DNA of 26,574 nucleotides, taken from a virus. The stretch covers positions 1-26,574 of the IMG/VR virus record IMGVR_UViG_3300007344_000193. One strand, 5' to 3'. The position numbers were made by a program, and so were the translations under genes. Below the pieces are notes generated by a model that worked only from the letters and a program-made list of their open reading frames with translations, searched no databases and was not told where the DNA came from. Positions within the stretch are counted from its first letter, which is position 1. Each line of letters begins with the position of its first letter. Shown here one piece after another: positions 4,101 to 26,574 of this stretch.

Positions 4101-5289
4101 TAGCTAATCTATCTACAACATTTGTAGCTTCTATATCTTCTCCAGTAAGAGTTATAATTTCATTTCTTATTTCAGTTGGTCTACCTTTTAAATCATTAAC
4201 TTCTTTTCTTAATTCTTCAATAGTAGGTACAGAAGCAGCAACTACTTCTTTATATTTAGGTGTATTTATAAGTAGTACATTTTTTCGTTTATATTCCTCA
4301 AACGCTGTTTCAAGAGCTTGTAGTTCTTTAGCTTTTTCTGCTATTTTACTTTCATTAAGAGCTAACTCAGCTTTAAGGTCTTCAACTGTTTTATTTCTTT
4401 GATCTTGGTCTAAAAGCTGTTGTTTAGCCCCTAAAGCCCCTTCTCCTGGAGATACTGTGTTTATTTTTAAATTTTCAAGTAAATCTCCTTGAGTTACAGC
4501 ATATACTGTTATTTTATAAGTACCATTAGGTTGAAATGTAAACTTAAAATTTTTAACAATTAAGTATAAGGCATCATAATTGCCTGATTGTTTTTGTTTT
4601 TCTTTTTTTATTTCATTGTATATAGTATATTGAGTGCTTTTTTTAGATAATATTGATTTAAAAGGATCAGTTATTAAACTAGTTGGATCATTATGAATAA
4701 CAGTCGCTGTATCATTATCAATATATCTTGTCCATCCCCATTCTAATAAGAAACTATAACCAGGATGTAAAAATAAAGTATCAATTATATTTAGTTGTTC
4801 TTTATTAAAAGCAATTATATCGATTTCTGCATTAGCTAAAGCTCCTTTATTTACATAACTTACTCTTACAGATTCAATACCAGGCATTGGTCTTAGTCCT
4901 TGATCTAATCCAGCAAAACCATAAGAATTAGTTATAGAAAAATCACTATTAGCAGCAAAATAATCTTGATTGTTTGTAGAAGGATTAAAAGATAAACTAT
5001 CTCCTGAACCTGTTACTGAAGATACTCCATTATATAAAATAAAATTTTTAGCTAAGTTTTCACTTGCATAATCTGCTCCTAAATTTAATGAAACTAATCT
5101 TTCAGCCGCTCTTGGTCCTCTAATATCAATACCAGATATCATTCTAGTCCAAGCTGAATTGTTATGTAACCATTGGTTAACACTATCATTAATAGTATTA
5201 CCCTCTTGTGAATAACCTAAAAGAGTTTGTCTAGCTTCTACTTGTTGTGTTACAAATCTATCAAAAACTTCACCTATAATATTTGCCAT
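1141..5289 (-). CDS. Baseplate hub protein (gp27-like) with C-terminal GH19-like peptidoglycan hydrolase
   Basis: A 1382-residue protein that probably forms the centre of the baseplate and digests the cell wall on injection. The N-terminal third has hub-type beta segments (HPGYSFLLEWGWTRY; KFTFQPNGTYKITVY). A Lys/Glu/Leu-rich coiled coil follows at about 290-380. A Ser/Gly/Thr-rich linker lies around 600-660. Near 1060-1110 is a segment typical of gp27/gpD-type hubs (EVDDKILPPMYDNRSYNF, then NNKWTTTLES). From about 1157 to 1375 comes a lysozyme/chitinase-like domain: SKESNF with Glu1162 as likely catalytic acid, and GRGYNGVTF near 1251, which resembles the GRG-Y core of GH19 enzymes. T4 carries the lysozyme on a separate protein, gp5; here hub and enzyme are one chain. 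It starts one base after the LysM gene stop. The hub call is strong; the exact hydrolase family is moderate. Confidence 0.82.
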   Translation of the reverse strand: MANIIGEVFDRFVTQQVEARQTLLGYSQEGNTINDSVNQWLHNNSAWTRMISGIDIRGPRAAERLVSLNLGADYASENLAKNFILYNGVSSVTGSGDSLSFNPSTNNQDYFAANSDFSITNSYGFAGLDQGLRPMPGIESVRVSYVNKGALANAEIDIIAFNKEQLNIIDTLFLHPGYSFLLEWGWTRYIDNDTATVIHNDPTSLITDPFKSILSKKSTQYTIYNEIKKEKQKQSGNYDALYLIVKNFKFTFQPNGTYKITVYAVTQGDLLENLKINTVSPGEGALGAKQQLLDQDQRNKTVEDLKAELALNESKIAEKAKELQALETAFEEYKRKNVLLINTPKYKEVVAASVPTIEELRKEVNDLKGRPTEIRNEIITLTGEDIEATNVVDRLANKSRIHLELKRVRDYLQGNTGGASQDILSMKVEKIEKTKTVNEEGLIIETTDTANDFLYFMKLGNLLDFIQNNLLLYSTSKSNPYFRIDTNNNNYCFHFSKHISADPEICMIPVRDGKIAVPESYKKVRERPEKIAELQRKLQQQQKNVELAQDVLEINQSIENIGTIDFSPTTPGERVFNPFEVTKPNTETTEPAGFLDVIKEPTAAEQALTAAQQYLKSISTDLTSENKAASGSTDASGHPFYGGLPSTFQSNAGGGTTSRDEVIQEENLGRVFENIPVVFSGSAGFTGPETITIKGAPKEVEAYTINFPNSIRYITRSRYFQFGKKDNEPTNLTEQGSWTIKDGKFKRIPDKDKSTTPNLTKTRNADDIESGLTSQDLNTDFIVNNFIGRLMDIHVNLEYIATVANNNIDKQGNLSLISFLNQLLTGINAALGYCHDFQVIYDRETNYVKIYDYKILNYGGLKEKSNAPAFFNLFGFKPIGRFNYGSFIYDVNFTSQLTNDFVNMITIAAQSDTNVLGMDYTGLSKYNEGLVDRIISQKKSAAEIGSTSGGTTVKDLNNLYNTAKTFAQDIWGQLSINRGEVDAFMSANRDLANYEINNSVKNGLIPNPIVIPYNLSLTMMGLSGMKIFETFEVDDKILPPMYDNRSYNFIAKAISHTITNNKWTTTLESQIVNKSKNNEVIPVSENVEKYIRVVTNNGGGGGVTFQGLGSCDPEILKKVTPFSNLSSEKRKNAIYLYKLLKSSKFNFTESQARAIVSVSSKESNFKPVDEISYVNGNTKIKRIIEVWPKVQNPPLRNKVLKLLADGASDYSSGCYADGSCPKHIQADKDFWELFYGGLYGNPKGQAWRYIGRGYNGVTFLGSEKSGDGYAGYNRLYRELGSPAGQVDLVKNPEDLNKKDSDGIYKIAAWVAGLYFQKAINRHKSTFEGVKNDPEATIKYMIKANAGWGSAETGKIFVEGLCKAVKFYSTLPSSIPVNEVPNV

Positions 5290-12097: not shown

Positions 12098-13876
12098 TTA
12101 TGCTGGGAATTCTACTCCAGTTGGTAAGATGTTGAAGTTCAAGTAAATGAATTCAGCAGTCTTAGTTAGTTGGATATAAATCTGACCTACTAACTGGTTT
12201 CTGTCAATTACATCAGCGGTGTTGTTTGTGTCATCCATAATTACTCTGAAAGCATATAAACCTTGTTTCTGCTGTACTGAGGTTAAATATGGGTTAACTT
12301 GAGCTAAGAAACTGTTTCTAGTAGCTGCTGTATTTTGTTCAAATACTAAGTTATTAGCTACTTGAGAAATATATGATTTCAATGCAATTAACAATCTTCT
12401 AACATTTACTCTATCTAAAGCAGAAGCTCTAGTTTGTAATGTTTTCTGACCGTATACTACAACTCCAGTTCCTGGGAATGTAGCGATTGGATTTACTTTT
12501 CCTACATATAAAGAATCTCTATTAGTTTGAGATAATTTTTGTTCTGCTCTAATTACAGTCGTTAAACCACCTCTGTTAATACCAGCTGGTGCAAACCAAG
12601 GCTCACTTACACTATCATTATAAGCATAAACACCTGGAATCATTGTTGAAGCTGGAACCCATACTCTAGCTCCTGTATCTGGATCAATGGTTTGTAACCA
12701 AGGCCAGTAAGCAGCAGCATATGAAGTGTTTCTAGCAGCGGCTTGAGTAATTACTGTAGCTTGAGCTGTACCGTAGTAAGCTAAGTCAACTACAAAAATA
12801 TTATCTCCTCTGTTTTGGGTGTTGTTAATAATGTTAGTGATCTGTCCGTTATGTGTACCGATGTTATTGAACAAACCAGGAGTTACTAATAAGTTAAATT
12901 GGTAATCATCTTGGTTTGATAATAAAGCAATCATATTAGTATAATCACTACCTGATAAACCTTGAGTGTTGTTACCTGTGATTTCGTTATAATATTTATT
13001 AGCTCCATTAGGTACATTAACACCTACACCCGCAATAAATGAACCACTACCTGCTGCTGGAATAGATCCAGTAAATTCTGGTTTTGCAGTACCTGAGTTA
13101 TTAAAGTAATCTGGTGTTTTCTGATCAACTGATTTAACTCTTACATATCTTGAAGCGTTTGGATATTCACCACCAATTGTTATTTGTGGGTTTGCAACTT
13201 CTCCATTAAATGAAGCTGACTGGTCACCAATAATTTTAGAAATATAATTATCAGCTTTAGGGTCTAATGATAAGTTAGTCCAAGTTTCTAAAACACTTTG
13301 GTTATTATTATCGTCACTAGCTTGTCTAATGATTAATGAGAAAGTACCGTTAGCTGTGTCTGGATTTGAAATTACCCACCTTAAGTTATCAGTTGAACCA
13401 GAATCTAAAACTCCATTTGATCCAGTTGTACCAACACTATTCATAATCGCACCCATAGAAATAGTTTCTAAGGCAAATGATTGTGAGAATGAAGCAGAGT
13501 TCATAATTGAGACTGGAGCACCTACAGCATCTTGAACACCATTAGTTCCTGTTACAGAACCAGTATCTGTTGTTGCTGAAGCCCAAGAATCAGAAGCTGA
13601 TACTACTCTAGCTACTAACAAACTTTCACCACCATTTGCAAAATAGTTATAAGCTGCAATTGAAGTGAAGTAAGTGTAAACACTACTTGCGCTAGTAAAT
13701 GTTGTACCGAATAAGTTTTGATACTGTGAGTATGAAGTTACTACAGTAGGAATTTCAACAGGACCTTTCACAGTTGGGCCGATAATTGCAGCTCCTACAG
13801 TTACTGGCTGTTGGGTGAGAAACGACTGATCGTTTTCAATAGCGAGTACGCCAGGGGATATTAATGTTGATGCCAT
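12098..13876 (-). CDS. Tail sheath protein (gp18-like)
   Basis: A 592-residue contractile sheath subunit. The N-terminus is diagnostic: SPGVLAIENDQSFLTQQPV, then VGAAIIGPTVKGPVEIPTVV and a segment on querying a loaded position (SYSQYQNLFGTTF). A variable surface domain occupies roughly 95-330 and is rich in Ser, Asn and Gly. The conserved C-terminal sheath domain follows, with RNTSYAAAYWPWLQTIDPDT, VWVPASTMIPGVYAYNDS, PVVVYGQKTL-type strands and the last segment IYIQLTKTAEFIYLNFNILP. C-terminal arms of this kind link neighbouring subunits. It is directly followed by the tube gene. The ATATTTAT motif lies 23 nt before the ATG. Length is a little below T4 gp18 (659). Confidence 0.95.
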   Translation of the reverse strand: MASTLISPGVLAIENDQSFLTQQPVTVGAAIIGPTVKGPVEIPTVVTSYSQYQNLFGTTFTSASSVYTYFTSIAAYNYFANGGESLLVARVVSASDSWASATTDTGSVTGTNGVQDAVGAPVSIMNSASFSQSFALETISMGAIMNSVGTTGSNGVLDSGSTDNLRWVISNPDTANGTFSLIIRQASDDNNNQSVLETWTNLSLDPKADNYISKIIGDQSASFNGEVANPQITIGGEYPNASRYVRVKSVDQKTPDYFNNSGTAKPEFTGSIPAAGSGSFIAGVGVNVPNGANKYYNEITGNNTQGLSGSDYTNMIALLSNQDDYQFNLLVTPGLFNNIGTHNGQITNIINNTQNRGDNIFVVDLAYYGTAQATVITQAAARNTSYAAAYWPWLQTIDPDTGARVWVPASTMIPGVYAYNDSVSEPWFAPAGINRGGLTTVIRAEQKLSQTNRDSLYVGKVNPIATFPGTGVVVYGQKTLQTRASALDRVNVRRLLIALKSYISQVANNLVFEQNTAATRNSFLAQVNPYLTSVQQKQGLYAFRVIMDDTNNTADVIDRNQLVGQIYIQLTKTAEFIYLNFNILPTGVEFPA

Positions 13877-15041: not shown

Positions 15042-15701
15042 TTAACGATTATCTATATGAATTATAACTTCATTATAATACTCTATAAAATGTTCATTCC
15101 ATAAATCCCATTTGATATTAACACCGTCTACAGAATAAACTTCAAAATTATTAAATTTAATTAAGTAGTTATCCCTAAAATTTCTAAATTTTTCTTTTAA
15201 TTCAGGAGTGCTTAAATGCCATTCTCCTGATATTTTTCTAATGTTGTTTAAAACATACTCTATATTTTCTTCTGTGAAGATGCTATACTCACCTCCTTCA
15301 CAATCTGTTTTTAAAAAATCAATATATTTAATATTATTTTCTTTTATAAATTTTTTAAAAGTTAAACTTCTACATTCACTAGCTAACCCATCCCATTGTA
15401 CTTCTGTTGTTTCTTCTTGACTAAGAAAAGCTTTAATAAAAGAAACAGAATAACCTAATAAATTTTCTTGTAAAATATCAAAATATGAATTTAAAGGTTC
15501 AACAACCCAACAATGTTTTGGTTTTTTATCCTTAATAGACCAGATAAAGTCTCCTATAGAGGCTCCAAAGTCAACTACTATATCTCCTTCTTCAACAGGA
15601 AAATATTTTTCATAAATGTTTTCTTCAAACATTTCTCTAGTAAGTTGATCTTTATACCATTCTGATGTTGGGCCCCAATTAAAATTTTCTAAGTTTATCA
15701 T
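15042..15701 (-). CDS. FkbM-family SAM-dependent methyltransferase
   Basis: A 219-residue methyltransferase, probably acting on a sugar hydroxyl of a glycan. The SAM-binding strand and Gly loop are at residues 40-50 (DIVVDFGASIG), followed by the acidic end of the second strand (CWVVEPLNSYF, 64-74). The FkbM-type segment KYIDFLKTDCEGGEYSIF lies at 125-142. The C-terminal part contains GEWHLSTPELKEKFRNF at 159-175 and SVDGVNIKWDLW at 190-201. Length is close to the catalytic core of the family, so this copy has no extra domain, unlike the two other FkbM-type genes in the island. It starts four bases inside the end of the large glycosyltransferase gene (ATGA overlap), so the two are translationally coupled. 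Confidence 0.85.
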   Translation of the reverse strand: MINLENFNWGPTSEWYKDQLTREMFEENIYEKYFPVEEGDIVVDFGASIGDFIWSIKDKKPKHCWVVEPLNSYFDILQENLLGYSVSFIKAFLSQEETTEVQWDGLASECRSLTFKKFIKENNIKYIDFLKTDCEGGEYSIFTEENIEYVLNNIRKISGEWHLSTPELKEKFRNFRDNYLIKFNNFEVYSVDGVNIKWDLWNEHFIEYYNEVIIHIDNR

Positions 15702-17977
15702 AAAGGTAATAAATTAAATACAGTTAATGGTGAGATTGATTTTTCACAAATATGTTGTTTATCTGTTCCTTCCCATATTGGGCACCAATCCCAATTTCCA
15801 GGGTCAAAAATAAAGTTAGTATTATTCCAACATGAATTACAAGCATGTTCATTTTGTATTCTTATATTATTAGATATAAATTCATGATCTTTTTGAGAAA
15901 AACCACTAATCATCACTGTTTGTTTTCCTAAAGCCCAATTTATCCAAGATAGTCCTGAACTTAATCCTATTAAAAATTTAGCATTATAAAGAATATCCAT
16001 AGATTCATTTAATGTTTTACCGTGAATATTTAAATTACCTTTTATATTATAGGGTTTATTTGTAAGTGTTACTACTGTGTATCCTAATTCACGCAACATT
16101 TTAGATAATGATACCCAACTGTCATAAGGCCACTCTTTACAACCAGCAGTTGATTCAGGGGCAATAACAATATAATTTGTTTTTATTGATTTTGATTTTG
16201 GGGCAAAATTTATCCCATAATTTAATTCTTTAAATTCTAAACCTAAAATATCTGATGCTGTTTTTTGGAGTGGTTGAGTTTGAGGATAATTAGGATACAT
16301 TTCAAATTTGTCCCATTTACCTGATTCTCCTCTAAACCATCCTATTCGATATATAACATCACAGTTTATTGATTGTCCTGGTTCTATAAATTCAATGTCT
16401 TTATATGTCTCTAATCCTTTAAACCAATGGTTATGAAATGTGCTTAAAATTACTTTACAATTATGTTTTTTAGCAAAATCAACAGCATAGGGTGTCCAAG
16501 CAATTGTATCACCAATAGATTTTGACTCTAATCCTATTAATACTCGTTTATTATTTAAGTTAAGTTCTTCAATTATATTTCCATTAACTTTAATTTTCCA
16601 TTTAGTATAATAGGTTCTAGAACATTTTGTCCACATATTATTAGTGATAGTGTCCTCATGAATAATATTATTATTTTCATCTAAAAATTCAATATGATAT
16701 TGTTCTAGTTTATCTCCTACAATTTCTATTTTAGGACCATCAAAATAACTAATTTTTATTTCATTTTTTAATTGAGCATTTTTATGTTTATTCCTTTCAT
16801 AAAATTCTATTATAGTTTTATAACCAATTTGTCCTACTTTTTCCCAACTAAAATTATGTTTAATTTCTTCTGATTCTTTTAAAGCATTTTTCTTACATTC
16901 ATCATACTTTTTATAAGAATACATCATCATTAGTTGTAAATGGTTAAAATCAGGTTCATAATAATTACCTGTGTAATCATTAAAATGATTATATGATGAA
17001 TCATTTGCTGATTTTTCACCTAATATATTTATTGGTATTCCTTTATTTTCAGCAAATTCAAGTTGACCTGAACAGTTTGAATAAATAGAGGGTATACCAC
17101 AGGCCATTGCCTCAATTAAAGGTAAATTCCAACCCTCAGAACGAGCACAAGATAAAAACACATTACATGATTTTAGTATTTTAATATAATCTTCTCTAGA
17201 TGGAAAATGAACTACTTTAATTCTTGGATCTGTTAAACCATAATATTTTAATCTATTTTCTGTTGTTTCTAAACCATCTCCTGAAAAAGGATTATCTATA
17301 GAAACAATTAAGTCAACAGGATCATTTTCATTAAATGTATTTAAAAATGTTTCAATAATTTCTTTAGTTGATTTTCTATAATCCCATCTACCTGCTAAAA
17401 AGAATTTAAATCTACCATCTGAAGTTAACTCATGAGTTGTTTCTTCAGGGTAAAAAGTATGAATATCAACTCCTTCAGGAACAACTTTAATTTTATCCTT
17501 TGGGTAGCCTTGTTTAATAGTTACATCACGCTGCCATTTTGAAGGAACCCATAATTCATCGAATTCTTTTAATTTATTAAAAAATTCTTCTGGTTGTTGG
17601 GTTGTTTCCCAAACATTATAAGCTATTTTTGGACCATTGTATCCATCATAAAATAAATGATGATTAGTTTCACATAAAACAATATTTAAATCATGTAGAA
17701 ATTCTTTAGATTTGTCAGAATATATTTTATAGTTATCTCTCCCACCCTTATCATTCCATAATATCTGTTCATATAAAATAGATTTATCTATTTCATTAAT
17801 ATAAGGTTCATTATTATGAGGGGTATTATTAAAACTTTCCCATGTTTTACCAATTGTGAAATTCCTAACTTTTAATTGTAAATGTTTAGATAACTCTCTA
17901 AAAAAGTCTCTTGTATGTTGGTTATAACCTGTAGTTCCTATATAAGAACCATGAACATATACTTTTGGTTTAGTCAT
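15698..17977 (-). CDS. Fusion of GT4 glycosyltransferase with autotransporter-heptosyltransferase-like (BAHT) domain
   Basis: A 759-residue, two-enzyme protein. Residues 1-395 are a GT-B fold of family GT4: GSYIGTTGYNQHTRDFF near the start, PEGVDIHTFYPEE at 167-179, a donor-site segment FFLAGRWDYRKS at 192-203, and the E-x7-E motif SEGWNLPLIEAMACGIP (Glu281, Glu289). A beta-rich linker spans about 405-475. Residues 478-759 resemble GT9-type protein O-heptosyltransferases of bacterial autotransporters (TibC/AAH): SIGDTIAWTPY at 487-497 and GLSSGLSWINWALG at 671-684. A cysteine set follows (Cys713, Cys716, Cys732, Cys744), which in that family forms an iron-binding finger. Known members glycosylate Ser in repetitive adhesins. 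The fusion and phage context suggest glycosylation of a virion protein. It overlaps both neighbours by 4-8 bases. Confidence 0.83.
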   Translation of the reverse strand: MTKPKVYVHGSYIGTTGYNQHTRDFFRELSKHLQLKVRNFTIGKTWESFNNTPHNNEPYINEIDKSILYEQILWNDKGGRDNYKIYSDKSKEFLHDLNIVLCETNHHLFYDGYNGPKIAYNVWETTQQPEEFFNKLKEFDELWVPSKWQRDVTIKQGYPKDKIKVVPEGVDIHTFYPEETTHELTSDGRFKFFLAGRWDYRKSTKEIIETFLNTFNENDPVDLIVSIDNPFSGDGLETTENRLKYYGLTDPRIKVVHFPSREDYIKILKSCNVFLSCARSEGWNLPLIEAMACGIPSIYSNCSGQLEFAENKGIPINILGEKSANDSSYNHFNDYTGNYYEPDFNHLQLMMMYSYKKYDECKKNALKESEEIKHNFSWEKVGQIGYKTIIEFYERNKHKNAQLKNEIKISYFDGPKIEIVGDKLEQYHIEFLDENNNIIHEDTITNNMWTKCSRTYYTKWKIKVNGNIIEELNLNNKRVLIGLESKSIGDTIAWTPYAVDFAKKHNCKVILSTFHNHWFKGLETYKDIEFIEPGQSINCDVIYRIGWFRGESGKWDKFEMYPNYPQTQPLQKTASDILGLEFKELNYGINFAPKSKSIKTNYIVIAPESTAGCKEWPYDSWVSLSKMLRELGYTVVTLTNKPYNIKGNLNIHGKTLNESMDILYNAKFLIGLSSGLSWINWALGKQTVMISGFSQKDHEFISNNIRIQNEHACNSCWNNTNFIFDPGNWDWCPIWEGTDKQHICEKSISPLTVFNLLPL

Positions 17978-18809
17978 TTTTAATAGCTAGTGTATTACAA
18001 GTGTGTTTAATTGTTTTATAAGAATTTGCTAAAAACCAAATATCAAGCTTAGCTTTAGTAATTATATCTAAATTTTCATCTTCATAAATTATTAAATTAG
18101 GTCTAGATTCCAAAGCTAAAATTAAATCTCCATCTAAACCTTCTACATCTAAATGTAACCAATCATAATTTTGATCTTTTATTAAATCATTAATTGATAT
18201 ACTTTTTCTATACGTTTTAGTTATTTCTGAAGAGTCTAACCATTCATTGATTACTGATGGTATTACTGTATCTGTATAGCCTTCTCCGCCTTGATACCAT
18301 TCTACATCAGATCCATCTGTTGTAACTATAATATTTTTAAATTTTGTATTTAAATAATTAAAATAATTTTCTTCTAGTTTTTTAAACTGGTTATCACTAC
18401 CGTCAATTAAAGTAGCTTCTGTTAAATTTTCTTTAACGGGGTATATCCAATGTCCGTTTCTTCCATCATGAGCACCAATAACTAAACCGTTAGATTTTAA
18501 TCCTTGTAATTGTCTACCTTTTAAATAGTACCATAACATTTTTTCATGAATATCTCCATTAACAGTGACATCCCATTTATGTTCATGTAATAAAGTCCCA
18601 TTAGAAGAATAAATCAAAACATCAGTAATAAATTCTCCACCTTTCCATTCTGCCCAACAATTGTCTGTTAATTTAACTTCATAATGGATTTCTTTTGAAA
18701 TAATATTTTTAAATTGGATAGTTAATGGAAGGTGTTCTTTAATTAAAGTTAAATTATTTAATTCTACTAAAGTTGAATTATTTTCTCTATTATAAGTTAC
18801 ATTTATCAT
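17970..18809 (-). CDS. FkbM-like methyltransferase with an N-terminal beta-rich domain
   Basis: A 279-residue protein with two parts. Residues 1-100 are beta-rich and not catalytic (a segment NCWAEWKGGEF, then HEHKWDVTVNGDIHEK). The C-terminal 180 residues are a Rossmann methyltransferase: the Gly loop LVIGAHDGRNGHW at 109-121, and WLHLDVEGLDGDLIL at 217-231, the DVEG-type signature of FkbM enzymes. The N-terminal part shares the short pattern KW-x3-VNG-x-I with the linker of the neighbouring 759-residue transferase (KWKIKVNGNI), so both may carry a common accessory beta module that binds substrate or partners. It overlaps the previous gene by four bases and the next by eight. The methyltransferase fold is well supported; the substrate is inferred to be a sugar. 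Confidence 0.75.
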   Translation of the reverse strand: MINVTYNRENNSTLVELNNLTLIKEHLPLTIQFKNIISKEIHYEVKLTDNCWAEWKGGEFITDVLIYSSNGTLLHEHKWDVTVNGDIHEKMLWYYLKGRQLQGLKSNGLVIGAHDGRNGHWIYPVKENLTEATLIDGSDNQFKKLEENYFNYLNTKFKNIIVTTDGSDVEWYQGGEGYTDTVIPSVINEWLDSSEITKTYRKSISINDLIKDQNYDWLHLDVEGLDGDLILALESRPNLIIYEDENLDIITKAKLDIWFLANSYKTIKHTCNTLAIKND

Positions 18810-19729
18810 ATATTATTAATTGTTAAAATATTTTGTCCAATAGAAATTATGTTTTTTGTATAATCAATTTCTTCATCATTACATAAAATTTTTAATAAAG
18901 AACAAGTATTAAATGGTAATTCAATATGTTCCCAAGTTTTTAAATTAAATTCTTTTTCAAAATTATCACTTATAATTTTTATATTTTTAACTCCTTCAAA
19001 TTCATAAAAAAGAAGTTTTATATTATCAAAGTCTGTTTTATGAATAAATAATTTATACTCATTTGTTGTAGAATAATTAAAAAAATCAAACTCATTAAAA
19101 TTATAAACTAAATCTTCTATAGGTTCAACATTTTCAATAACAGCAGGAATAAATTTTATAGCTTTATGAGTCCATGAAAAAGCATCTCCATTTTTTTCAG
19201 TTAGATAAGATTCTGGGGTTATTAGATTTTTAAACCTATTTAAATAAGTTTTATTTAAAGATATTAAATGAAGTCCTATAGGCCAAACAGATGTTTCTCT
19301 TTTTGATGGAAAAAAACTATTTGGTTTACTGTCTAAAAGAATATTTTTTACTTCATCAGTGATATGAGTATCATAATCTATTATAAAAAAGTGATCATAA
19401 TCCATAGATAAAGCTAAATTAGCCATTTTTTTAATTTGATTTAAAACAGCATAACCATAATCTGGGTATGTGCGACTCATTTTAATGTTTAGGTTTCCAA
19501 TAATAATATCAGTCCATTGATAGTAAGCTTTTATAGGCCAATCAAATACTAGGTTTTCTTTTGAAATTATAGTATAGTCTGCTTTTTTATAAATTTTTTC
19601 TGGGAGGTGGATAGCTGTATAAAGGATTGTATCTATATTAAGATTTTTTAATGTCTCTAATTTATTTTTTAACACATTAATTTTTTCCTTATTATTGCAA
19701 AAACTAGTTATTAAAGCTATTTTTTTCAT
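18806..19729 (-). CDS. Glycosyltransferase-like protein, GT-A type (paralogue 1)
   Basis: A 307-residue protein beginning MKKIALITSFCNNKEKINVL, a nucleotide-sugar-binding type strand-loop. It has a DxD-like motif in a hydrophobic strand, HFFIIDYDTHI at 113-123 (Asp118, Asp120), typical of metal-dependent GT-A glycosyltransferases. Between them is VFDWPIKAYYQW and a helix with YAVLNQIKKMANLAL. The C-terminal 100 residues are beta-rich, perhaps an accessory domain. It is clearly related in layout to the next gene upstream (same N-terminal strand, YDW/FDW segment and DYD position), so the pair arose by duplication. It abuts that gene without a gap. The DNA is noticeably AT-richer than the tail genes. 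No signal peptide or membrane anchor is seen, so it is cytoplasmic. The donor and acceptor are unknown. Confidence 0.72.
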   Translation of the reverse strand: MKKIALITSFCNNKEKINVLKNKLETLKNLNIDTILYTAIHLPEKIYKKADYTIISKENLVFDWPIKAYYQWTDIIIGNLNIKMSRTYPDYGYAVLNQIKKMANLALSMDYDHFFIIDYDTHITDEVKNILLDSKPNSFFPSKRETSVWPIGLHLISLNKTYLNRFKNLITPESYLTEKNGDAFSWTHKAIKFIPAVIENVEPIEDLVYNFNEFDFFNYSTTNEYKLFIHKTDFDNIKLLFYEFEGVKNIKIISDNFEKEFNLKTWEHIELPFNTCSLLKILCNDEEIDYTKNIISIGQNILTINNI

Positions 19730-20731
19730 TTAATTATATTGTGTTTGATTATTACGTTTAAATTTCTCTTTTAATTCTGGGGTGTTTATTAGGATGTGGT
19801 TTTTAATTTTGTTATCAACAATAATTAATATTTCATTAACATTATTGATATCATCTACTTCTCTTATACTCCATTGGTATTTGTTTATATTGTTTATTGT
19901 GATTATTTTTTCTTGATTTATAATAAAACTAGTATTAATAGGATAATCTTTTTTAGAGTTCCAAACAATAACATTTAATTTACCTGTTTTAGTATCATAA
20001 AAAGGAACAGTCCAATCATTTAAATCATCTTTTTGTGTAGATATAGATTGATTAAATATGTTTCCTTGATTTAGTAAATCATCCCAGTTTTTATACAATA
20101 TTTCCTCTCCATCTAATTTATATAAATCCTGATATATAATTTCATTTGTTTTATTAGGGGCTTCTTTTAGAATTTTTAATAACTCTTTTTCATCATATGT
20201 TGTAAAAATTTTATTTATTTTATTTAAATTTATTGATTGGAAAACACCTACACCACCTTCAACATTCCAATCAAAATTTCTGTATTCTTTTTTATATTGG
20301 ATTGTTACATACTTATTTAGTAATTCATTATTTTCATAAAACTCAGAATAATCATTAATAATAGCATCATAATCTATATAATGGGCTTTTTCATATCCAA
20401 AATTTTTAGCTATACCTAAACCACCCATTATTATTCTATTACAAGCAGAATAAGTACTAAAATTAGATATTAATGAAGAAACTATATGTAAACCTTCATA
20501 AGGTGAAAACCATGGAAGATTCATTAAATCCCAATCATATATTAAATCATTGTTAGCATCATAAAAAGTAAAATCTACTTTTTTACTAATATATTCAGGA
20601 ATATAAGAATGGCTTGAAATTAAAATATCAAAATCTTTTCTAATAGGTTGAAGAGAATTAATACAATTTTCAAGCATTGTTTTTCTTTCATCATCAGGGC
20701 AATAAGCAGAAACTATAATTATTGATTTCAT
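19730..20731 (-). CDS. Glycosyltransferase-like protein, GT-A type (paralogue 2)
   Basis: A 333-residue protein starting MKSIIIVSAYCPDDERKTML, with a DxD-like motif AHYIDYDAII at 116-125 (Asp120, Asp122) following a helix GLGIAKNFGYEK. The layout equals that of the next gene, including an IYDW segment near residue 64. It is therefore the second member of a tandem glycosyltransferase pair. The C-terminus is odd: after a beta-rich region it ends in NTPELKEKFKRNNQTQYN, whose TPELKEKF matches a segment in the middle of the FkbM methyltransferase at 15042-15701, also at DNA level over about 28 bases with about four differences. This looks like a recombination scar. It lies three bases after the radical SAM gene. 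Confidence 0.72.
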   Translation of the reverse strand: MKSIIIVSAYCPDDERKTMLENCINSLQPIRKDFDILISSHSYIPEYISKKVDFTFYDANNDLIYDWDLMNLPWFSPYEGLHIVSSLISNFSTYSACNRIIMGGLGIAKNFGYEKAHYIDYDAIINDYSEFYENNELLNKYVTIQYKKEYRNFDWNVEGGVGVFQSINLNKINKIFTTYDEKELLKILKEAPNKTNEIIYQDLYKLDGEEILYKNWDDLLNQGNIFNQSISTQKDDLNDWTVPFYDTKTGKLNVIVWNSKKDYPINTSFIINQEKIITINNINKYQWSIREVDDINNVNEILIIVDNKIKNHILINTPELKEKFKRNNQTQYN

Positions 20732-20734
20732 ATT

Positions 20735-21580
20735 TTAATTAGGGTTAATTCCATTTTCACAATAACGACACATATCATAACAAGAATTTAATTTTGGAAT
20801 AACATCTTCATATTCTTGTTCAAACATATTTCCTATAATATAACTTAAAGAATAATCCATACAACATAAAGATACATCTCCGTTTGGAAGCATCACGTTA
20901 TGGTATAAATTTTCTATACAGCCGCATGTTTTAGGTGACTCACCATGATATACTGATCTGAATAATTCTTTAACATTTAGCAGTTCTGGTTTTAGAATGG
21001 CTTCACCTATTAAGTTTCCTGCTCTAGACCACATTTCAGGATTGCTAGCATGACTAAAAATATGATTAATAGATTCATGGACAGTACCCATTGACATTAA
21101 ATGAAATGTGTTAAAAGAATCTTGATAGAGCCCGAAAGCTTCAATAACTTCTATATAACGAGGAGTTATAGGATGTTTTGCTAATCTTTCTTGGTCAGGT
21201 AAATGTAAAACAAAACCAGCGTTAGGACCATTATCATAGGAAACATCTTTAAGTCTTTCTACATCATCTACTGTCATTCCTACAGCTGTAGTAAATGCTG
21301 CTATTCTATGTCCTTTTTCATAAGCGTAAAGTAACATATCAGTACAATGCCTATTAGTCCAAGGTTCAGTAAAACCAGCAAAAGTAATTCTAACTTCTGT
21401 TGGGATTTTATCTATTGCTCTTTTAAAGTCATCTAAAGATAAATGACGGGTTCCATTATAATTTTTAACTAAAGTTCTTTGAGGACAAAAAATGCAATCA
21501 ACAACACAGCCTTTTTTAGGTAGATTAGTTGTAATCTCCATAGTAGCATAGGGTGTTATTTTCCAATCTTGATTAGCCAT
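20735..21580 (-). CDS. Radical SAM protein with SPASM-type C-terminal cluster domain
   Basis: A 281-residue radical S-adenosylmethionine enzyme. The cluster motif CxxxCxxC is at Cys25, Cys29 and Cys32 (GCVVDCIFCPQRTL). The barrel follows, with an early Gly-rich strand-turn RITFAGFTEPWTN. The C-terminus carries further cysteines in a SPASM-like arrangement: CGCIENLYHNV (219, 221), DVSLCCMDYS (239, 240) and CYDMCRYC (267, 271, 274), which would bind an auxiliary iron-sulfur cluster. SPASM enzymes modify peptides or sugars. Neighbouring glycosyl- and methyltransferases suggest a sugar or protein side-chain modification here. It is tightly coupled to both neighbours (8-base overlap with the TPR-FkbM gene). 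The class is certain; the substrate is unknown. Confidence 0.88.
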   Translation of the reverse strand: MANQDWKITPYATMEITTNLPKKGCVVDCIFCPQRTLVKNYNGTRHLSLDDFKRAIDKIPTEVRITFAGFTEPWTNRHCTDMLLYAYEKGHRIAAFTTAVGMTVDDVERLKDVSYDNGPNAGFVLHLPDQERLAKHPITPRYIEVIEAFGLYQDSFNTFHLMSMGTVHESINHIFSHASNPEMWSRAGNLIGEAILKPELLNVKELFRSVYHGESPKTCGCIENLYHNVMLPNGDVSLCCMDYSLSYIIGNMFEQEYEDVIPKLNSCYDMCRYCENGINPN

Positions 21581-22802
21581 TTAATATATAATGATCTGCT
21601 CTTTTAATTTTTTCAGAATAATCTACCATTGCTGTAAAAATTTCAGAATCTACTAATTCAGGATGTATCCACCAGTCTTCAAATGTACTATTTGAGTCAG
21701 GAGCTATATCTCCTACTACTCTTTTATAACCATGAGCTTCTAAGAATTTTCTAGAAAGATTTCTATAATCTAAAGAATGATTTAAATAATAATCATGTTC
21801 AAAGGTGATTACTCTAAATTTATATTTATCAAAAGGAATTGAAAGTAACACTTTAAATGTTATTTCAGCCGGTTCACAATCAACTTGAAGGTAATCTATA
21901 ACCTCACTAAAGTTGTTATTAACAAATAACTCTTCATAGTTGACAACTGTAGCATCTTGTAAAAGGCACGCGTTAGAACGTTGAGAGTTAAATTTATTTA
22001 CTTCTTCTTCATTGATTTCTAATGATACCCCTGTCCAGTTAAATTCTTTTTCTAATAAAGCTGTATTACTATTATGGAAAGGATCAGCTGCTCCTATTTC
22101 AACATAAGTGCCTTTTTCTTTTCCATCTAACATACTTAATACAAACAAATCCTGGTAAGTTTGGGAATAATTTTTCTCAATTTTTTCAGAATTTTTAAAT
22201 TTGTATCTTAATTTTGAGTGTTCTTCTTTAGTATAAGTTAACGTTGGATATTGAATCCCATGAATTGTAGATAAATTATTATAGCAAGCTTCTACAAATT
22301 CAGGACGCATAGAATATTCCTGTAATAAGTGATTAAATAATTTTCTTGACTCATCACAATATCCAATCCACCATCCTGCTACTGCTTTTTGGAATATTAA
22401 AGCATATTCACCAGGAAAATCAATACTAGTTAAAGTAGGTTTGATATTTTTTATTTTATCTAAACCTTGAACAGCTGCTAAATATGATTCTTGCCATTCT
22501 CCTTTAACTTGATAATCATAACTTAAATGATAATAAGCTTCAGGACGTTCACGATCAAAAGTAATAGCATTTAAGATAGCTCCTCTAGTTGAATGAGGAC
22601 GTCCTTCTATTTCTTTTAAACATAAAGCTACTTTAATTAAAGCTTCATATGTTAAATCTTTATCAAAACCATATTCTGCTGCTCTTAAAAATAAAGACAA
22701 AGCGGCTGCTTTATGTCCTTCTTGATAATATTGTTCACCAAATACAAAATTTGTTTCTGGATGATATGGATTATCTATAAAATTCTTTAAAATATTATCC
22801 AT
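21573..22802 (-). CDS. TPR-repeat protein fused to an FkbM-type methyltransferase
   Basis: A 409-residue fusion. Residues 15-185 are helical and TPR-like (FGEQYYQEGHKAAALSLFLR; AYYHLSYDYQVKGEWQESYL; GWWIGYCDESRKLFNHLLQE), the kind of scaffold that binds peptides or proteins. Residues 210-400 are a methyltransferase: SQTYQDLFVLSMLDG leads into GTYVEIGAADPFHNSNT at 231-247, a SAM-binding loop, with DYLQVDCEPAEITFKVLL at 303-320 as the FkbM-type acidic segment. FITFEHDYYL-like residues follow near 334. TPR regions are typical of protein-modifying glycosyltransferase systems, so a protein-bound glycan is a plausible substrate (inference). It overlaps the genes on both sides by eight bases. Confidence 0.83.
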   Translation of the reverse strand: MDNILKNFIDNPYHPETNFVFGEQYYQEGHKAAALSLFLRAAEYGFDKDLTYEALIKVALCLKEIEGRPHSTRGAILNAITFDRERPEAYYHLSYDYQVKGEWQESYLAAVQGLDKIKNIKPTLTSIDFPGEYALIFQKAVAGWWIGYCDESRKLFNHLLQEYSMRPEFVEACYNNLSTIHGIQYPTLTYTKEEHSKLRYKFKNSEKIEKNYSQTYQDLFVLSMLDGKEKGTYVEIGAADPFHNSNTALLEKEFNWTGVSLEINEEEVNKFNSQRSNACLLQDATVVNYEELFVNNNFSEVIDYLQVDCEPAEITFKVLLSIPFDKYKFRVITFEHDYYLNHSLDYRNLSRKFLEAHGYKRVVGDIAPDSNSTFEDWWIHPELVDSEIFTAMVDYSEKIKRADHYILNG

Positions 22803-23784
22803 TGATTAGTTCCTCTACAACATTTTCTGGGATTTTTAAAGCGAAAGCTGCGCTGTCATGGAATCCATAAGTGATAATTAAATCATTTTCCACAACCGCT
22901 GCTCCACAAACAAATTCAATTCTTCCAGTCATAAACTTAAATACATCAGAATATTTTACAATATTCCAATCTTTATCATAAACAATTATTCTATGGTTAT
23001 AAATACCATCTTTATTATTATTTTCATTTTGCCAAAAATCTACTTCATGAACAACACATAAACGATAATCTTTCCATTTCACAACAGATGAACCACCTCT
23101 TAAATCATGGTTTTTACTTATTTCTTTAAATTTACCTAAAAATATAGTTTTACTAGTTCCTTTAATAGGATCAACTTTTACAATTTCTACTGGGTTAGCC
23201 CATTTGACATAACAATAATCCATATCATTAATAGGCATCCAATTTTTTTCACAATATGAATTAGGATCATTAGGTGGTTCTATTCTTACTCTTGAGATTT
23301 CATTTGATGTTCTATAATCATCTATTTCAGAAAGTTCCATTCTACCTTCTCCATTTGGTTTAGTATCTCTTCTAACACCTGTAATATATAAAACACCATC
23401 CCAACGAACTACTCGAGCATCTTCTAACCCAATAAATTCCCAAACTGGTTCAATGTCTAACTCTGAAGTGTTTACTTCTTTGTATGATTTTATTTCTAAA
23501 GTTTTAGGATCTAAAATACATAAAAAGTTAGTTGTTCTTAAATGTGGATCATTTTCAGGATGAAGATAAGCTAATGGGCCCCAACGTCCTTGAAACTTTT
23601 GTTCATTTTCACAATGGTAAAAAAGATAACCTACATTTCTTAAATTAAGTAAAATAGTTCCATCATTATCAACAAAAATAGAGGGATTACATAAACCTGT
23701 ATTTCTACTATCAATTGAAGGAATCTTTAAATGAGATATAGAACCTCCTTTATCTAAAACTAATTTAACTAAATTGTCAATCAT
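22795..23784 (-). CDS. GH130-like five-bladed beta-propeller, glycan-acting
   Basis: A protein of 329 residues from ATG 23784. It resembles the GH130/GH43-type beta-propellers that cleave or phosphorolyse mannosides. Visible signatures, numbered from this start, are NPSIFVDNDGTILLNLRN at 33-50, FIGLEDARVVRWDGVLYITG at 117-136 (the GxED-x-RV motif of GH130), CEKNWMPI at 178-185 and the closing block EFVCGAAVVENDLIITYGFH at 290-309. Whether it is an active enzyme or a sugar-binding or transferase relative cannot be settled by eye. I prefer ATG 23784 because it lies one base after the stop of the upstream oxygenase; a GTG at 23805 would overlap that gene by 20 bases. It ends overlapping the TPR-FkbM gene, which supports one co-translated modification operon. 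Confidence 0.78.
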   Translation of the reverse strand: MIDNLVKLVLDKGGSISHLKIPSIDSRNTGLCNPSIFVDNDGTILLNLRNVGYLFYHCENEQKFQGRWGPLAYLHPENDPHLRTTNFLCILDPKTLEIKSYKEVNTSELDIEPVWEFIGLEDARVVRWDGVLYITGVRRDTKPNGEGRMELSEIDDYRTSNEISRVRIEPPNDPNSYCEKNWMPINDMDYCYVKWANPVEIVKVDPIKGTSKTIFLGKFKEISKNHDLRGGSSVVKWKDYRLCVVHEVDFWQNENNNKDGIYNHRIIVYDKDWNIVKYSDVFKFMTGRIEFVCGAAVVENDLIITYGFHDSAAFALKIPENVVEELING

Positions 23785-23785
23785 A

Positions 23786-24367
23786 TTACTTATAGTGTTC
23801 TCCACCAGCCCATAATACTAAGCTTTTTCTTAAACCTGAGGCTACAGGGGTTATTCTATGTTGTAAAAATGAAGGGAAAACAATAACTGCTCCTTTTTTA
23901 TTTGAAACTTTTTGGGTGTTACTGCCTGAACTAATTTCTAAAACACCTCCAGTATATTCTGAAGGATCAGAAAGTTGTACAATAACTGATACTTTACGAT
24001 GGGAAATTGAACCTGGGCCGATATCTATATGCCAGTTATAATGTCCACCACCGCCTCTATATTCTGTATATTGAATATCATCTAAAACAGAATGAAGATT
24101 AAATTTCCAAACACTATTAGCTTCTTTAATACAACCCATTAAACGGTCATAAATCCAAGAAGAATTTTCACTTGGTGCTATCCATTTGATATTACTATTT
24201 CTTATATCTGATGTATTGCCAGATATAATAGTAGCTTGTTCAAATTCATAGTCTTTTGTAAGTTTTAAGATTTCATCTGCTTCATCTGAAGAGAATCCAT
24301 TTTCGAACCAGTAGTAGTTTGTTTGATCAATTTCTAAATTAGGATCAAATATAGGTCTAGAGTACAT
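23786..24367 (-). CDS. 2-oxoglutarate/Fe(II)-dependent dioxygenase, prolyl-hydroxylase-like
   Basis: A 193-residue dioxygenase of the prolyl 4-hydroxylase/PKHD type. Iron ligands are visible: His113 and Asp115 in HYNWHIDIGPG, and His170 in FPSFLQHRITPV. Arg180 in GLRKSLVLWAGG is the expected 2-oxoglutarate-binding residue. The surrounding strands SVIVQLSDPSEYTGGVLEI complete the jelly-roll core. Length is normal for the family. It is the first gene of the modification island and follows three fibre-module genes after a 42-base gap that holds a promoter-like element. The substrate could be the fibre, a glycan or another protein. The fibre shaft in this window has prolines mostly at the X position of Gly-X-Y and hardly any at Y, so it is not an obvious collagen-type prolyl hydroxylase substrate. 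Confidence 0.88.
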   Translation of the reverse strand: MYSRPIFDPNLEIDQTNYYWFENGFSSDEADEILKLTKDYEFEQATIISGNTSDIRNSNIKWIAPSENSSWIYDRLMGCIKEANSVWKFNLHSVLDDIQYTEYRGGGGHYNWHIDIGPGSISHRKVSVIVQLSDPSEYTGGVLEISSGSNTQKVSNKKGAVIVFPSFLQHRITPVASGLRKSLVLWAGGEHYK

Positions 24368-24609: not shown

Positions 24610-25302
24610 TTAATAAACAGTTACTACCACATCTAATCCAATAAAAGATCCAGCATTAGCTATAGCCGCCGCTCCATATGTATTCCAATCAAAAAGGTTA
24701 CTACCTCCACCTATTCCTGCTCCTGTAACATATCCTGTTCCATTTATGCTTATGTCACAAGAACCTCCTCCAAAACCAGGATCCATACTTAAATCTATAT
24801 ACCAATAACCTTGGGCTATAATAGGGGTATTATTTTGTGATATGTCTGTAGGGCCAAAACTACTAAATGTTGGTACTCCTCCTGAGTTACCTGCTAAATA
24901 AAGATAAGTTCCTGAATTGTCATAAAAGGATAAATTGCAGTCTTGTACATCGTTATTAATAGGAGGAGGTGGAGGTGGAGGTGGAGCTAGGTTATTTATT
25001 ACAGTTAAAGTAACTTGATAACTACTTTGATCATAAAAATAAACTAAACTTTTATAATCATTAAATTCATAAGGTCCGGGGTTAGCAGCTATAGGTAAGC
25101 CATATATTCTATTTACACCTCCTGCTGAATTTTGGCCCCAGGCGTTGTAGGATATAGTACCACTACCATTAGAACCATCAAAATAAGAATATCCTGCTAA
25201 GTCTCCAAAACTAATTCCACTACCAGGATTACCACTTCCTCCTCCAAATTGAGCTTCCCAATAAATATTTTCTAAATAAACATTAGTACTAGGTATTGCC
25301 AT
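24610..25302 (-). CDS. Gly-rich two-domain protein with octaproline hinge, fibre-tip or adhesin candidate
   Basis: A 230-residue protein directly behind the fibre gene stop, with no spacing. An N-terminal beta domain of about 107 residues has Gly-rich loops (FGGGSGNPGSGISFGDLAGY; FDGSNGSGTISYN). It is joined through eight consecutive prolines (about 108-115) to a C-terminal beta domain with further Gly loops (GFGGGSCDISINGTGYVTG; GAGIGGGSNLFDW). Two Cys (about 122 and 178) may pair. Gly-rich loop motifs in a protein encoded just after the long fibre recall the T-even gp38 adhesin, but there is no sequence match I can claim. A polyproline II rod would hold the two domains apart. Structural role likely; receptor binding is inference. 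Confidence 0.62.
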   Translation of the reverse strand: MAIPSTNVYLENIYWEAQFGGGSGNPGSGISFGDLAGYSYFDGSNGSGTISYNAWGQNSAGGVNRIYGLPIAANPGPYEFNDYKSLVYFYDQSSYQVTLTVINNLAPPPPPPPPINNDVQDCNLSFYDNSGTYLYLAGNSGGVPTFSSFGPTDISQNNTPIIAQGYWYIDLSMDPGFGGGSCDISINGTGYVTGAGIGGGSNLFDWNTYGAAAIANAGSFIGLDVVVTVY

Positions 25303-26574
25303 TTATTTATTTTTTAATTGGTTTACTTCATCTATTAATTCTTTAACAGCTTCAATCAACAATGCTGTTAATCTATCATAAACTACTGTCTTATATTCAT
25401 CCCAATCAACTACTATTTCAGGAAGTACTTTTTCAACTTCTTGAGCAATAACTCCAATTTCTGTTTTACCAGCTCTTGAAGGGGCCATTGCTTCAGCTTC
25501 TTCAGTCCAATTGTATCTTACACCTCTAAGTTTAGAAATTAATTCTAAAGCTGATTCAATTTTTTCAACATTAGTTTTTAATCTAGCATCTGAGTAGAAT
25601 GCTATAATATTACCTGTTGCTCTAATTTCTCCAGCAATACCTGGAGCAGTTGTATTAACACCTAATGAGTTAATTTGAGCGTTTGAGTTTGTAGTAAACC
25701 CACCAGTTGTACCTTGTGGGCCTGTTGGACCTGTGCTTCCATTACTACCTGCTGCACCTTGTGGACCTGTTCCTCCTGTTCCACCAGTTGTTCCTTGTGG
25801 GCCTGTTGGACCTGTACCTCCTGTTCCGCCTGTTGTACCTTGTGGACCTGTTGGACCTGTGCTTCCATTACTACCCGCTGTGCCTTGTGGACCTGTTCCT
25901 CCTGTTCCACCAGTTATACCTTGACGTCCTTGGATACCTTGAGCACCGGTAGTTCCTTGAGTACCTGTTGCTCCAGTAGTACCTTGAGTTCCAGGGACAC
26001 CTGGGTTTCCTTGGTCTCCTGTTATACCTTGACGTCCTTGAATACCTTGTGCTCCGATAGTACCTTGTGGACCAGTTGGTCCTGTACCTCCTGTTCCACC
26101 TGTTGTTCCTTGTGGACCAGTTGGTCCTGTTCCTCCAGTGTTACCTGTTATACCTTGTATACCTTGAGCACCTGTTGGGCCTGTTCCTCCAGTACCTCCA
26201 GTTGTTCCTTGTGGGCCTGTTGGACCTGTTCCTCCAGTACCTCCAGTTGTTCCTTGAGGACCTGTTGGACCTGTTCCTCCAGTGTTACCTGTTATACCTT
26301 GTATACCTTGAGCACCTGTTGGACCTGTTCCTCCAGTACCTCCAGTTGTTCCTTGAGGACCTGTTGGGCCTGTTCCTCCAGTGTTACCTGTTATACCTTG
26401 TCTACCTTGTATACCTTGAGCACCTGTTCCACCAGTTGTTCCTTGTGGGCCTGTTGGGCCTGTAGGGCCTGTAGGACCGTCTGGTCCTATTGGGCCTATA
26501 TTACCTGTTATTCCTTGACGACCTTGTATACCTTGAGCACCAATAGCTCCTTGGGTACCTGTTGTACCTTGAGG
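25303..26574 (-). CDS. Collagen-like tail fibre with C-terminal S74 intramolecular chaperone (N-terminus outside window)
   Basis: The visible 423 residues are the C-terminal part; the frame is open to the window edge. About 97 uninterrupted Gly-X-Y triplets (26568-25696) form a collagen-type trimeric shaft. Commonest triplets are [18 protein letters not shown] and GIT, so Thr and Gln dominate position Y and Pro sits at X. A short link ([15 protein letters not shown]) leads to [22 protein letters not shown], the entry of a peptidase S74 chaperone. Cleavage is expected before the Ser at 25593-25591, releasing a 96-residue domain after trimer folding. That domain shows [29 protein letters not shown] and a final helix [16 protein letters not shown]. 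The next gene starts immediately after the stop. An ATG inside this frame at 25488 is not the true start. Confidence 0.92.
26135..26477 (-). repeat. Long-period tandem repeats (99 and 144 bp) within the collagen-like shaft
   Basis: The string CCAGTGTTACCTGTTATACC (+ strand) recurs at 26135, 26279 and 26378, so units of 144 and 99 bp are nearly identical in DNA. The 99-bp unit codes 11 Gly-X-Y triplets; the 144-bp unit has five extra ones (45 bp). Repeats this alike allow copy-number change by slippage or recombination, altering shaft length in frame. Confidence 0.8.

Follow-up and report, generated by a model that had tools for sequence, protein, structure and literature searches.

The locus studied here raises the question of whether a collagen-like phage fibre, encoded close to an island rich in enzyme genes, is modified by the products of that island, and at which residues. 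The window, that is, the whole stretch of DNA analysed, is the linear, 26,574-base virus record IMGVR_UViG_3300007344_000193. Its minus strand, on which all the window features described below are encoded, carries a T4-like tail module with tape-measure-like, baseplate-like, tube and sheath genes, and the tail sheath (12098-13876; Phage_sheath_1 and Phage_sheath_1C in Pfam) anchored our comparison with other phages. A DNA search of a phage collection with the whole window gave no match. The closest cultured relatives of the sheath belong to Flavobacterium phages of the genus Immutovirus (52.7%) and to Microcystis phage Mel-JY01 (49.5%). Along the direction of transcription, the fibre is followed by the island (15042-24367), which agrees with an earlier note that placed the fibre upstream of it. 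The window also codes for a 1,382-aa protein (1141-5289) whose C-terminus looks lysozyme- or chitinase-like by eye and which has no match in Pfam.

The fibre frame (25303-26574) is open at its 5' end, and the window carries only the C-terminal 423 aa of the protein, the N-terminus being cut off by the contig end. We found that positions 25696-26568 encode exactly 97 unbroken GXY triplets, whereas, when this protein was shuffled 2000 times, the longest run with Gly at every third residue was 10. The X position is occupied by Pro (26 of 97), Gly (19), Thr (16) and Ile (12), and the Y position by Thr (54; 56%), Gln (31; 32%), Ile (4) and Pro (2). Thr is thus enriched at Y relative to X (Fisher p = 1.7e-8), and the commonest triplets are GGT (18), GPT (13), GTT (11), GPQ (11) and GIT (6), GNT occurring 3 times. 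Hence, the earlier estimate of about 97 triplets with Thr as the main Y residue is borne out. The regular triplet spacing described in the same note is not simple, as the repeats are built of larger imperfect units, for instance of 99 bp at 97% match. Pfam recognises a Collagen region (97 bits) and a C-terminal Peptidase_S74 intramolecular chaperone domain (25411-25593; PF13884, 68 bits, cut-off 22). Together with the uninterrupted Gly-X-Y pattern and the enrichment of Pro at X, this identifies the feature, on sequence grounds, as the collagen-like, S74-closed tail-fibre stalk of a T4-like myophage. The full fibre is found in the near-identical contig L002 (IMGVR_UViG_3300025889_000138; L002:2281-5019), which is 94% identical in DNA over the fibre; there, a frame of 912 aa contains 244 triplets, 129 of them with Thr at Y.

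Directly after the fibre, a 230-aa protein (24610-25302) without Pfam or PHROG match is followed by a 2OG-Fe(II) oxygenase of the PKHD/prolyl-hydroxylase fold (23786-24367; PF13640, 56 bits). The HxD...H facial triad and the 2OG-binding Arg are kept (His113, Asp115, His170 and Arg180) and are invariant in 14 relatives. The nearest solved structures by sequence are PKHD hydroxylases (3dkq, PiuC), with Bacillus P4H far behind, and the predicted model, of moderate confidence (pLDDT 77), matches the folds of 3dkq, PHD2, P. putida P4H and the viral collagen hydroxylase vCPH. Foldseek matches to PHD2, 4iw3 and 5c5t, at TMq of about 0.63-0.72, indicate a prolyl-hydroxylase fold, which PKHD enzymes show as well. 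The protein shares the 2OG-Fe(II) jelly-roll, the HxD...H...R residues and the link to collagen-like genes with the group formed by PBCV-1 vCPH, Bacillus anthracis P4H and the PKHD enzymes PiuC and Sbal_3634. Unlike the collagen prolyl hydroxylases, it is nearest to PKHD by sequence, its activity is putative, and the Pro of the adjacent shaft is at X, Y-position Pro, the classical P4H target, being nearly absent. PKHD-type hydroxylases, in turn, have substrates other than collagen, unlike the one proposed here. Across the contigs compared, the 2OG gene is constantly accompanied by Pro at X while the Y position is variable, with Thr, Gln, Lys or Ile, and we infer hydroxylation of X-Pro because of this constancy. 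In PPG peptides, Pro at X and Pro at Y are both substrates of Bacillus P4H (PMC8968730). Most likely, the X-Pro of the adjacent GXY shaft is what the phage oxygenase modifies. Peptides of Gly-Hyp-Thr form stable triple helices and those of Gly-Pro-Thr are not known to, which would fit GPT-rich shafts.

The rest of the island contains several sugar-type and methyltransferase-like genes. These are g336, a GH130-like protein (22795-23805; weak Glyco_hydro_130 matches in three of ten relatives, the best with E 6e-4); FkbM3, with a TPR-like N-terminus and an FkbM-like methyltransferase (21573-22802; weak Methyltransf_21, below cut-off); a radical SAM/SPASM enzyme (20735-21580; PF04055 just below cut-off, PF13186 above); g333, a GT-A-like protein (19730-20731) aligned with g307 at 18% identity, the invariant Y-D motif of g307 being common to both and the two forming one family; g307 itself, a GT-A-like glycosyltransferase candidate (18806-19729; the AF2 model, with pLDDT 90, resembles GT-A enzymes weakly in Foldseek, at a TM of about 0.4); FkbM2, an FkbM-like protein assigned by eye (17970-18809), with no match in Pfam, PHROG or NCBIfam; and FkbM1, an FkbM-family methyltransferase (15042-15701; TIGR01444 above cut-off).

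The remaining gene of the island (15698-17977) encodes a GT4 glycosyltransferase (PF00534) fused to a TibC/AAH-type O-heptosyltransferase. The C-terminal half scores 214 bits with TIGR04414 (TibC/AAH O-heptosyltransferases; NCBIfam cut-off 200), and the TibC-like (BAHT) domain (15713-16765) matches the TibC crystal structure (PDB 4rap) with E = 5e-35. Taking as reference the nine TibC residues named functional in PMC4358343, we found that eight are kept: the catalytic Asp110, the sugar-site Thr226, Lys230 and Trp305, which are Asp490, Thr610, Lys614 and Trp678 here, and the four Cys of the iron finger (Cys713, 716, 732 and 744 here), whose individual mutation in TibC yields an inactive enzyme (PMC4358343). 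The ninth, the sugar-binding Arg286, is replaced by Ser659; in TibC, its mutation to Ala abolishes or largely abolishes activity (PMC4358343). Because of this replacement, the donor may be other than ADP-heptose. The mapped acceptor sites of TibC are Ser, not Thr (PMC4358343). By family, then, the protein is a relative of true protein O-glycosyltransferases. It differs from TibC and AAH in being phage-encoded, fused to GT4 and devoid of an autotransporter partner: the neighbours of the gene are phage tail genes, and no autotransporter domain was found by Pfam in the window proteins scanned. When bacterial genomes were scanned for the BAHT domain, no close relative by pattern was found, the literature searched, outside subscription journals, held no earlier report of phage-encoded TibC-type enzymes, and phage go unmentioned in the paper describing the TibC structure (PMC4358343). 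The TibC-like domain is 84-87% identical to those of its relatives in L106, L109 and L118, whereas the sheaths are only 50-57% identical; since the domain identity is far above that of the sheath, the island has the character of an exchangeable cassette. In three contigs, a second, partial TibC-like copy lies directly behind the full one (G014:11077-11934, G026:9617-10495 and G029:4622-5500).

To relate enzymes to fibres, related loci were collected in five viral scans and long stretches of about 65 records were taken; fibres were scored by triplet composition and enzymes by purpose-built profiles, TIGR04414 being run additionally over whole records. The comparison set comprises 56 sheath-anchored phage contigs, nearly all fragments of uncultured phages, so that absences refer to the covered tail region only. 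The TibC-like gene was present in all 20 contigs with a Gly-[Ser/Thr]-Ser fibre. Microcystis phage Mel-JY01, a cultured phage, combines a Gly-[Thr/Ser]-Ser fibre with a TIGR04414 match of 321 bits. The 2OG gene was present in 14/14 contigs with a Pro-containing GXY fibre versus 3/42 others, and the 16 sheath contigs without any GXY fibre had neither gene (16/16). Among the three other 2OG-positive contigs, G004 carries fibre sequence with 15-18% X-Pro and G021 with 9%, and the covered part of G006 shows no fibre. When contigs derived from the 2OG search were left out, the figures were 9/9 versus 1/40. A PF13640 scan agreed for near 2OG copies and missed diverged ones. The associations are specific, as the Gly-[Ser/Thr]-Ser fibre does not track 2OG (p = 0.76) and the Pro-containing fibre does not track the TibC-like gene (p = 1). 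Apart from the sequences, the family memberships and the key residues, it is these two associations between genes and fibres that our data establish directly. The earlier note had assumed that hydroxyproline is unavailable to this shaft; this is now doubtful, as an oxygenase of prolyl-hydroxylase fold encoded about 0.9 kb away tracks such shafts.

On a sheath tree built by a quick method, the Pro-containing fibre and 2OG change 7 times each, in step. The best tree yields 7 independent pairs for Pro-containing fibre and 2OG and 9 for Gly-[Ser/Thr]-Ser fibre and TibC-like gene, all in the same direction and with traits matching in every scored row; well-supported branches give only 4 and 3 contrasts, respectively, numbers with which a sign test cannot reach significance. 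Adjacency was considered as a cause of the second pairing and is disfavoured. The gene order is Gly-[Ser/Thr]-Ser fibre, GXT fibre, 2OG ... TibC-like gene, sheath, so the GXT fibre lies between the two partners, yet it does not track the TibC-like gene. Adjacency alone would pair the TibC-like gene with the nearer GXT fibre and fails to explain a pairing that crosses the gene order in this manner. Most TibC-positive contigs that show no Gly-[Ser/Thr]-Ser fibre end soon past the island on the fibre side, and in G031 and G032 head genes occupy that side and the fibres may lie elsewhere. These contigs were not counted as contradictions; the pairing was scored from fibre to enzyme. While TibC and AAH act on autotransporters, the partner of the phage enzyme is apparently the Gly-[Ser/Thr]-Ser fibre.

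This second fibre, made of Gly-Ser-Ser and Gly-Thr-Ser triplets, is encoded immediately upstream of the GXT fibre, beyond the window. In G034 (G034:9608-21418; L206, L207), it is a giant protein, 3,937 aa long, in which repeats account for 3,357 residues. It contains 1,119 Gly-[Ser/Thr]-Ser triplets and a total of 1,769 Ser, and the GXT fibre downstream of it has the same N-terminus as the fibre studied. As a fully extended collagen helix, the giant fibre would measure about 0.96 micrometre, by arithmetic only and with the proviso that long fibre repeats may be mis-assembled. Similar giant fibres occur in G003, G016, G020 and G024, and both fibres are encoded together in one phage in L002, G003 and G020. 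In G037, Gln replaces Ser in the giant fibre and occupies 86% of its Y positions. This contig has just one TibC-like protein (G037:39369-40403; L179/L180), which has lost all four iron-finger Cys; this is a single case, and the gene is also relocated between tail and baseplate genes. A short SGSSGSSGSS stretch resembling the giant-fibre repeat was also seen in a large tail- or baseplate-like protein of G026 (G026:21479-24967; L254/L255).

Our best explanation, which we hold about as probable as its negation, is that the phage makes two fibres and a separate modifying enzyme for each of them: the 2OG oxygenase would act on the GXY shaft and the TibC-type enzyme on the giant fibre. We infer trimerisation, hydroxylation, glycosylation and the assignment of each enzyme to its substrate as follows. 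The C-terminal S74 chaperone would trimerise the collagen-like fibre. A Y position rich in Thr and Gln is what bacterial and phage collagens commonly have in place of Y-hydroxyproline, and Pro at X together with hydration by Thr and Gln can hold the triple helix without sugar. In the infected cell, the 2OG oxygenase would hydroxylate the X-Pro of GPT and GPQ triplets before the chains trimerise, and the TibC-type enzyme would glycosylate Ser residues of the giant fibre, whose gene immediately precedes that of the shaft and falls outside the window. A more ambitious form of this explanation, in which T4-like phages own an exchangeable fibre-maturation cassette that combines TibC-family hyper-O-glycosylation of the giant fibre with X-Pro hydroxylation yielding a hydroxyproline-stabilised collagen, is conceivable but stays tentative.

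On the other hand, the stalk could be ordinary and unmodified, the enzymes acting on host surface polysaccharide or on other parts of the virion and the associations reflecting cassette hitch-hiking. The exchangeability of the island would suit such hitch-hiking, and EPclA, a collagen stalk of phage origin that was produced recombinantly and has 20% Y-Thr, is not glycosylated and is stable up to its melting at 42 C (PMC3368898). However, hitch-hiking hardly accounts for two specific pairings that hold across the gene order, and the TibC-family enzymes studied so far modify proteins, not lipopolysaccharide, so we regard this alternative as unlikely. The collagen-like tail fibres of the EPclA type and of E. 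coli O157 prophages also have a collagen stalk without Y-Hyp, but the shaft described here is far richer in Thr and Gln, poor in charged residues and adjoined by modifying-enzyme genes.

Less probable still is the proposal of the earlier note that the Y-Thr of the shaft are O-glycosylated by the island as in BclA, either by the TibC-like enzyme or by the GH130-like/FkbM pair with the GT-A-like proteins. In BclA of the Bacillus exosporium, Thr in PTG triplets is indeed O-glycosylated (PMC6222408), and the phage shaft shares with it a long GXY region, X-Pro, Y-Thr and GPT triplets, but ends in an S74 domain and not in a BclA-type C-terminal domain. Moreover, the island does encode a relative of protein O-glycosyltransferases besides several sugar-type enzymes, and to this extent a fibre glycosylation encoded by the phage is plausible. 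The Thr of the shaft is not favoured as the target. Gram-positive collagens average about 31% X-Pro, 48% Y-Thr and 18% Y-Gln, and Thr or Gln at Y is explained by hydration networks in collagens without hydroxyproline (PMC3368898, PMC8968730). A Thr-rich Y position is therefore the published norm for such collagens, an ordinary make-up that, with EPclA unglycosylated, gives no evidence of sugar. The TibC-like gene follows the Ser-rich giant fibre, in keeping with the Ser sites of TibC, and does not track Y-Thr (p = 0.16). In addition, the most Thr-rich shafts compared, those of G005 and G042 (65% and 69% Y-Thr), occur with sheath, 2OG, g336, FkbM3 and the radical SAM gene, but with no TibC-like gene by TIGR04414, no GT4 and no g307 or g333; nor do the other proteins encoded from fibre to sheath, the region to which this absence applies, include a recognisable glycosyltransferase. 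Enzymes elsewhere in the genome or in the host are possible. Thr-rich shafts thus persist without the glycosyltransferase island. Pro-containing GXY fibres have a mean Y-Thr fraction of about 0.43 with g336 and FkbM3 and about 0.13 without (p = 0.001, shared descent ignored); because of this difference, glycosylation of Thr by a non-TibC enzyme, for example alongside the GH130-like/FkbM pair, is possible. That the TibC-like enzyme glycosylates both the Ser of the giant fibre and the Thr of the GXT shaft is highly improbable, since G042, and most likely G005 too, keeps a GXT shaft while lacking the enzyme, even if some phages encode the two fibres together.

Viruses with collagen-modifying enzymes of their own are known. 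Like Mimivirus, the phage studied here carries candidate modifiers of its collagen, although Mimivirus is a eukaryotic virus whose collagen is modified by its own hydroxylase/glycosyltransferase, a lysyl hydroxylase, whereas we describe a tailed phage with a prolyl-hydroxylase-like gene. If our explanation is true, phages modify their own fibres post-translationally with enzymes known from bacterial adhesins and from animal- and algal-virus collagens, and the usual view of bacteria and phages as lacking collagen prolyl hydroxylation would be corrected. Such enzymes would be compact tools for producing hydroxylated or glycosylated collagen in bacteria. The finding would also touch on the question of what stabilises very long phage fibres that are poor in hydroxyproline, and fibre glycosylation would join the factors that shape phage-host recognition.
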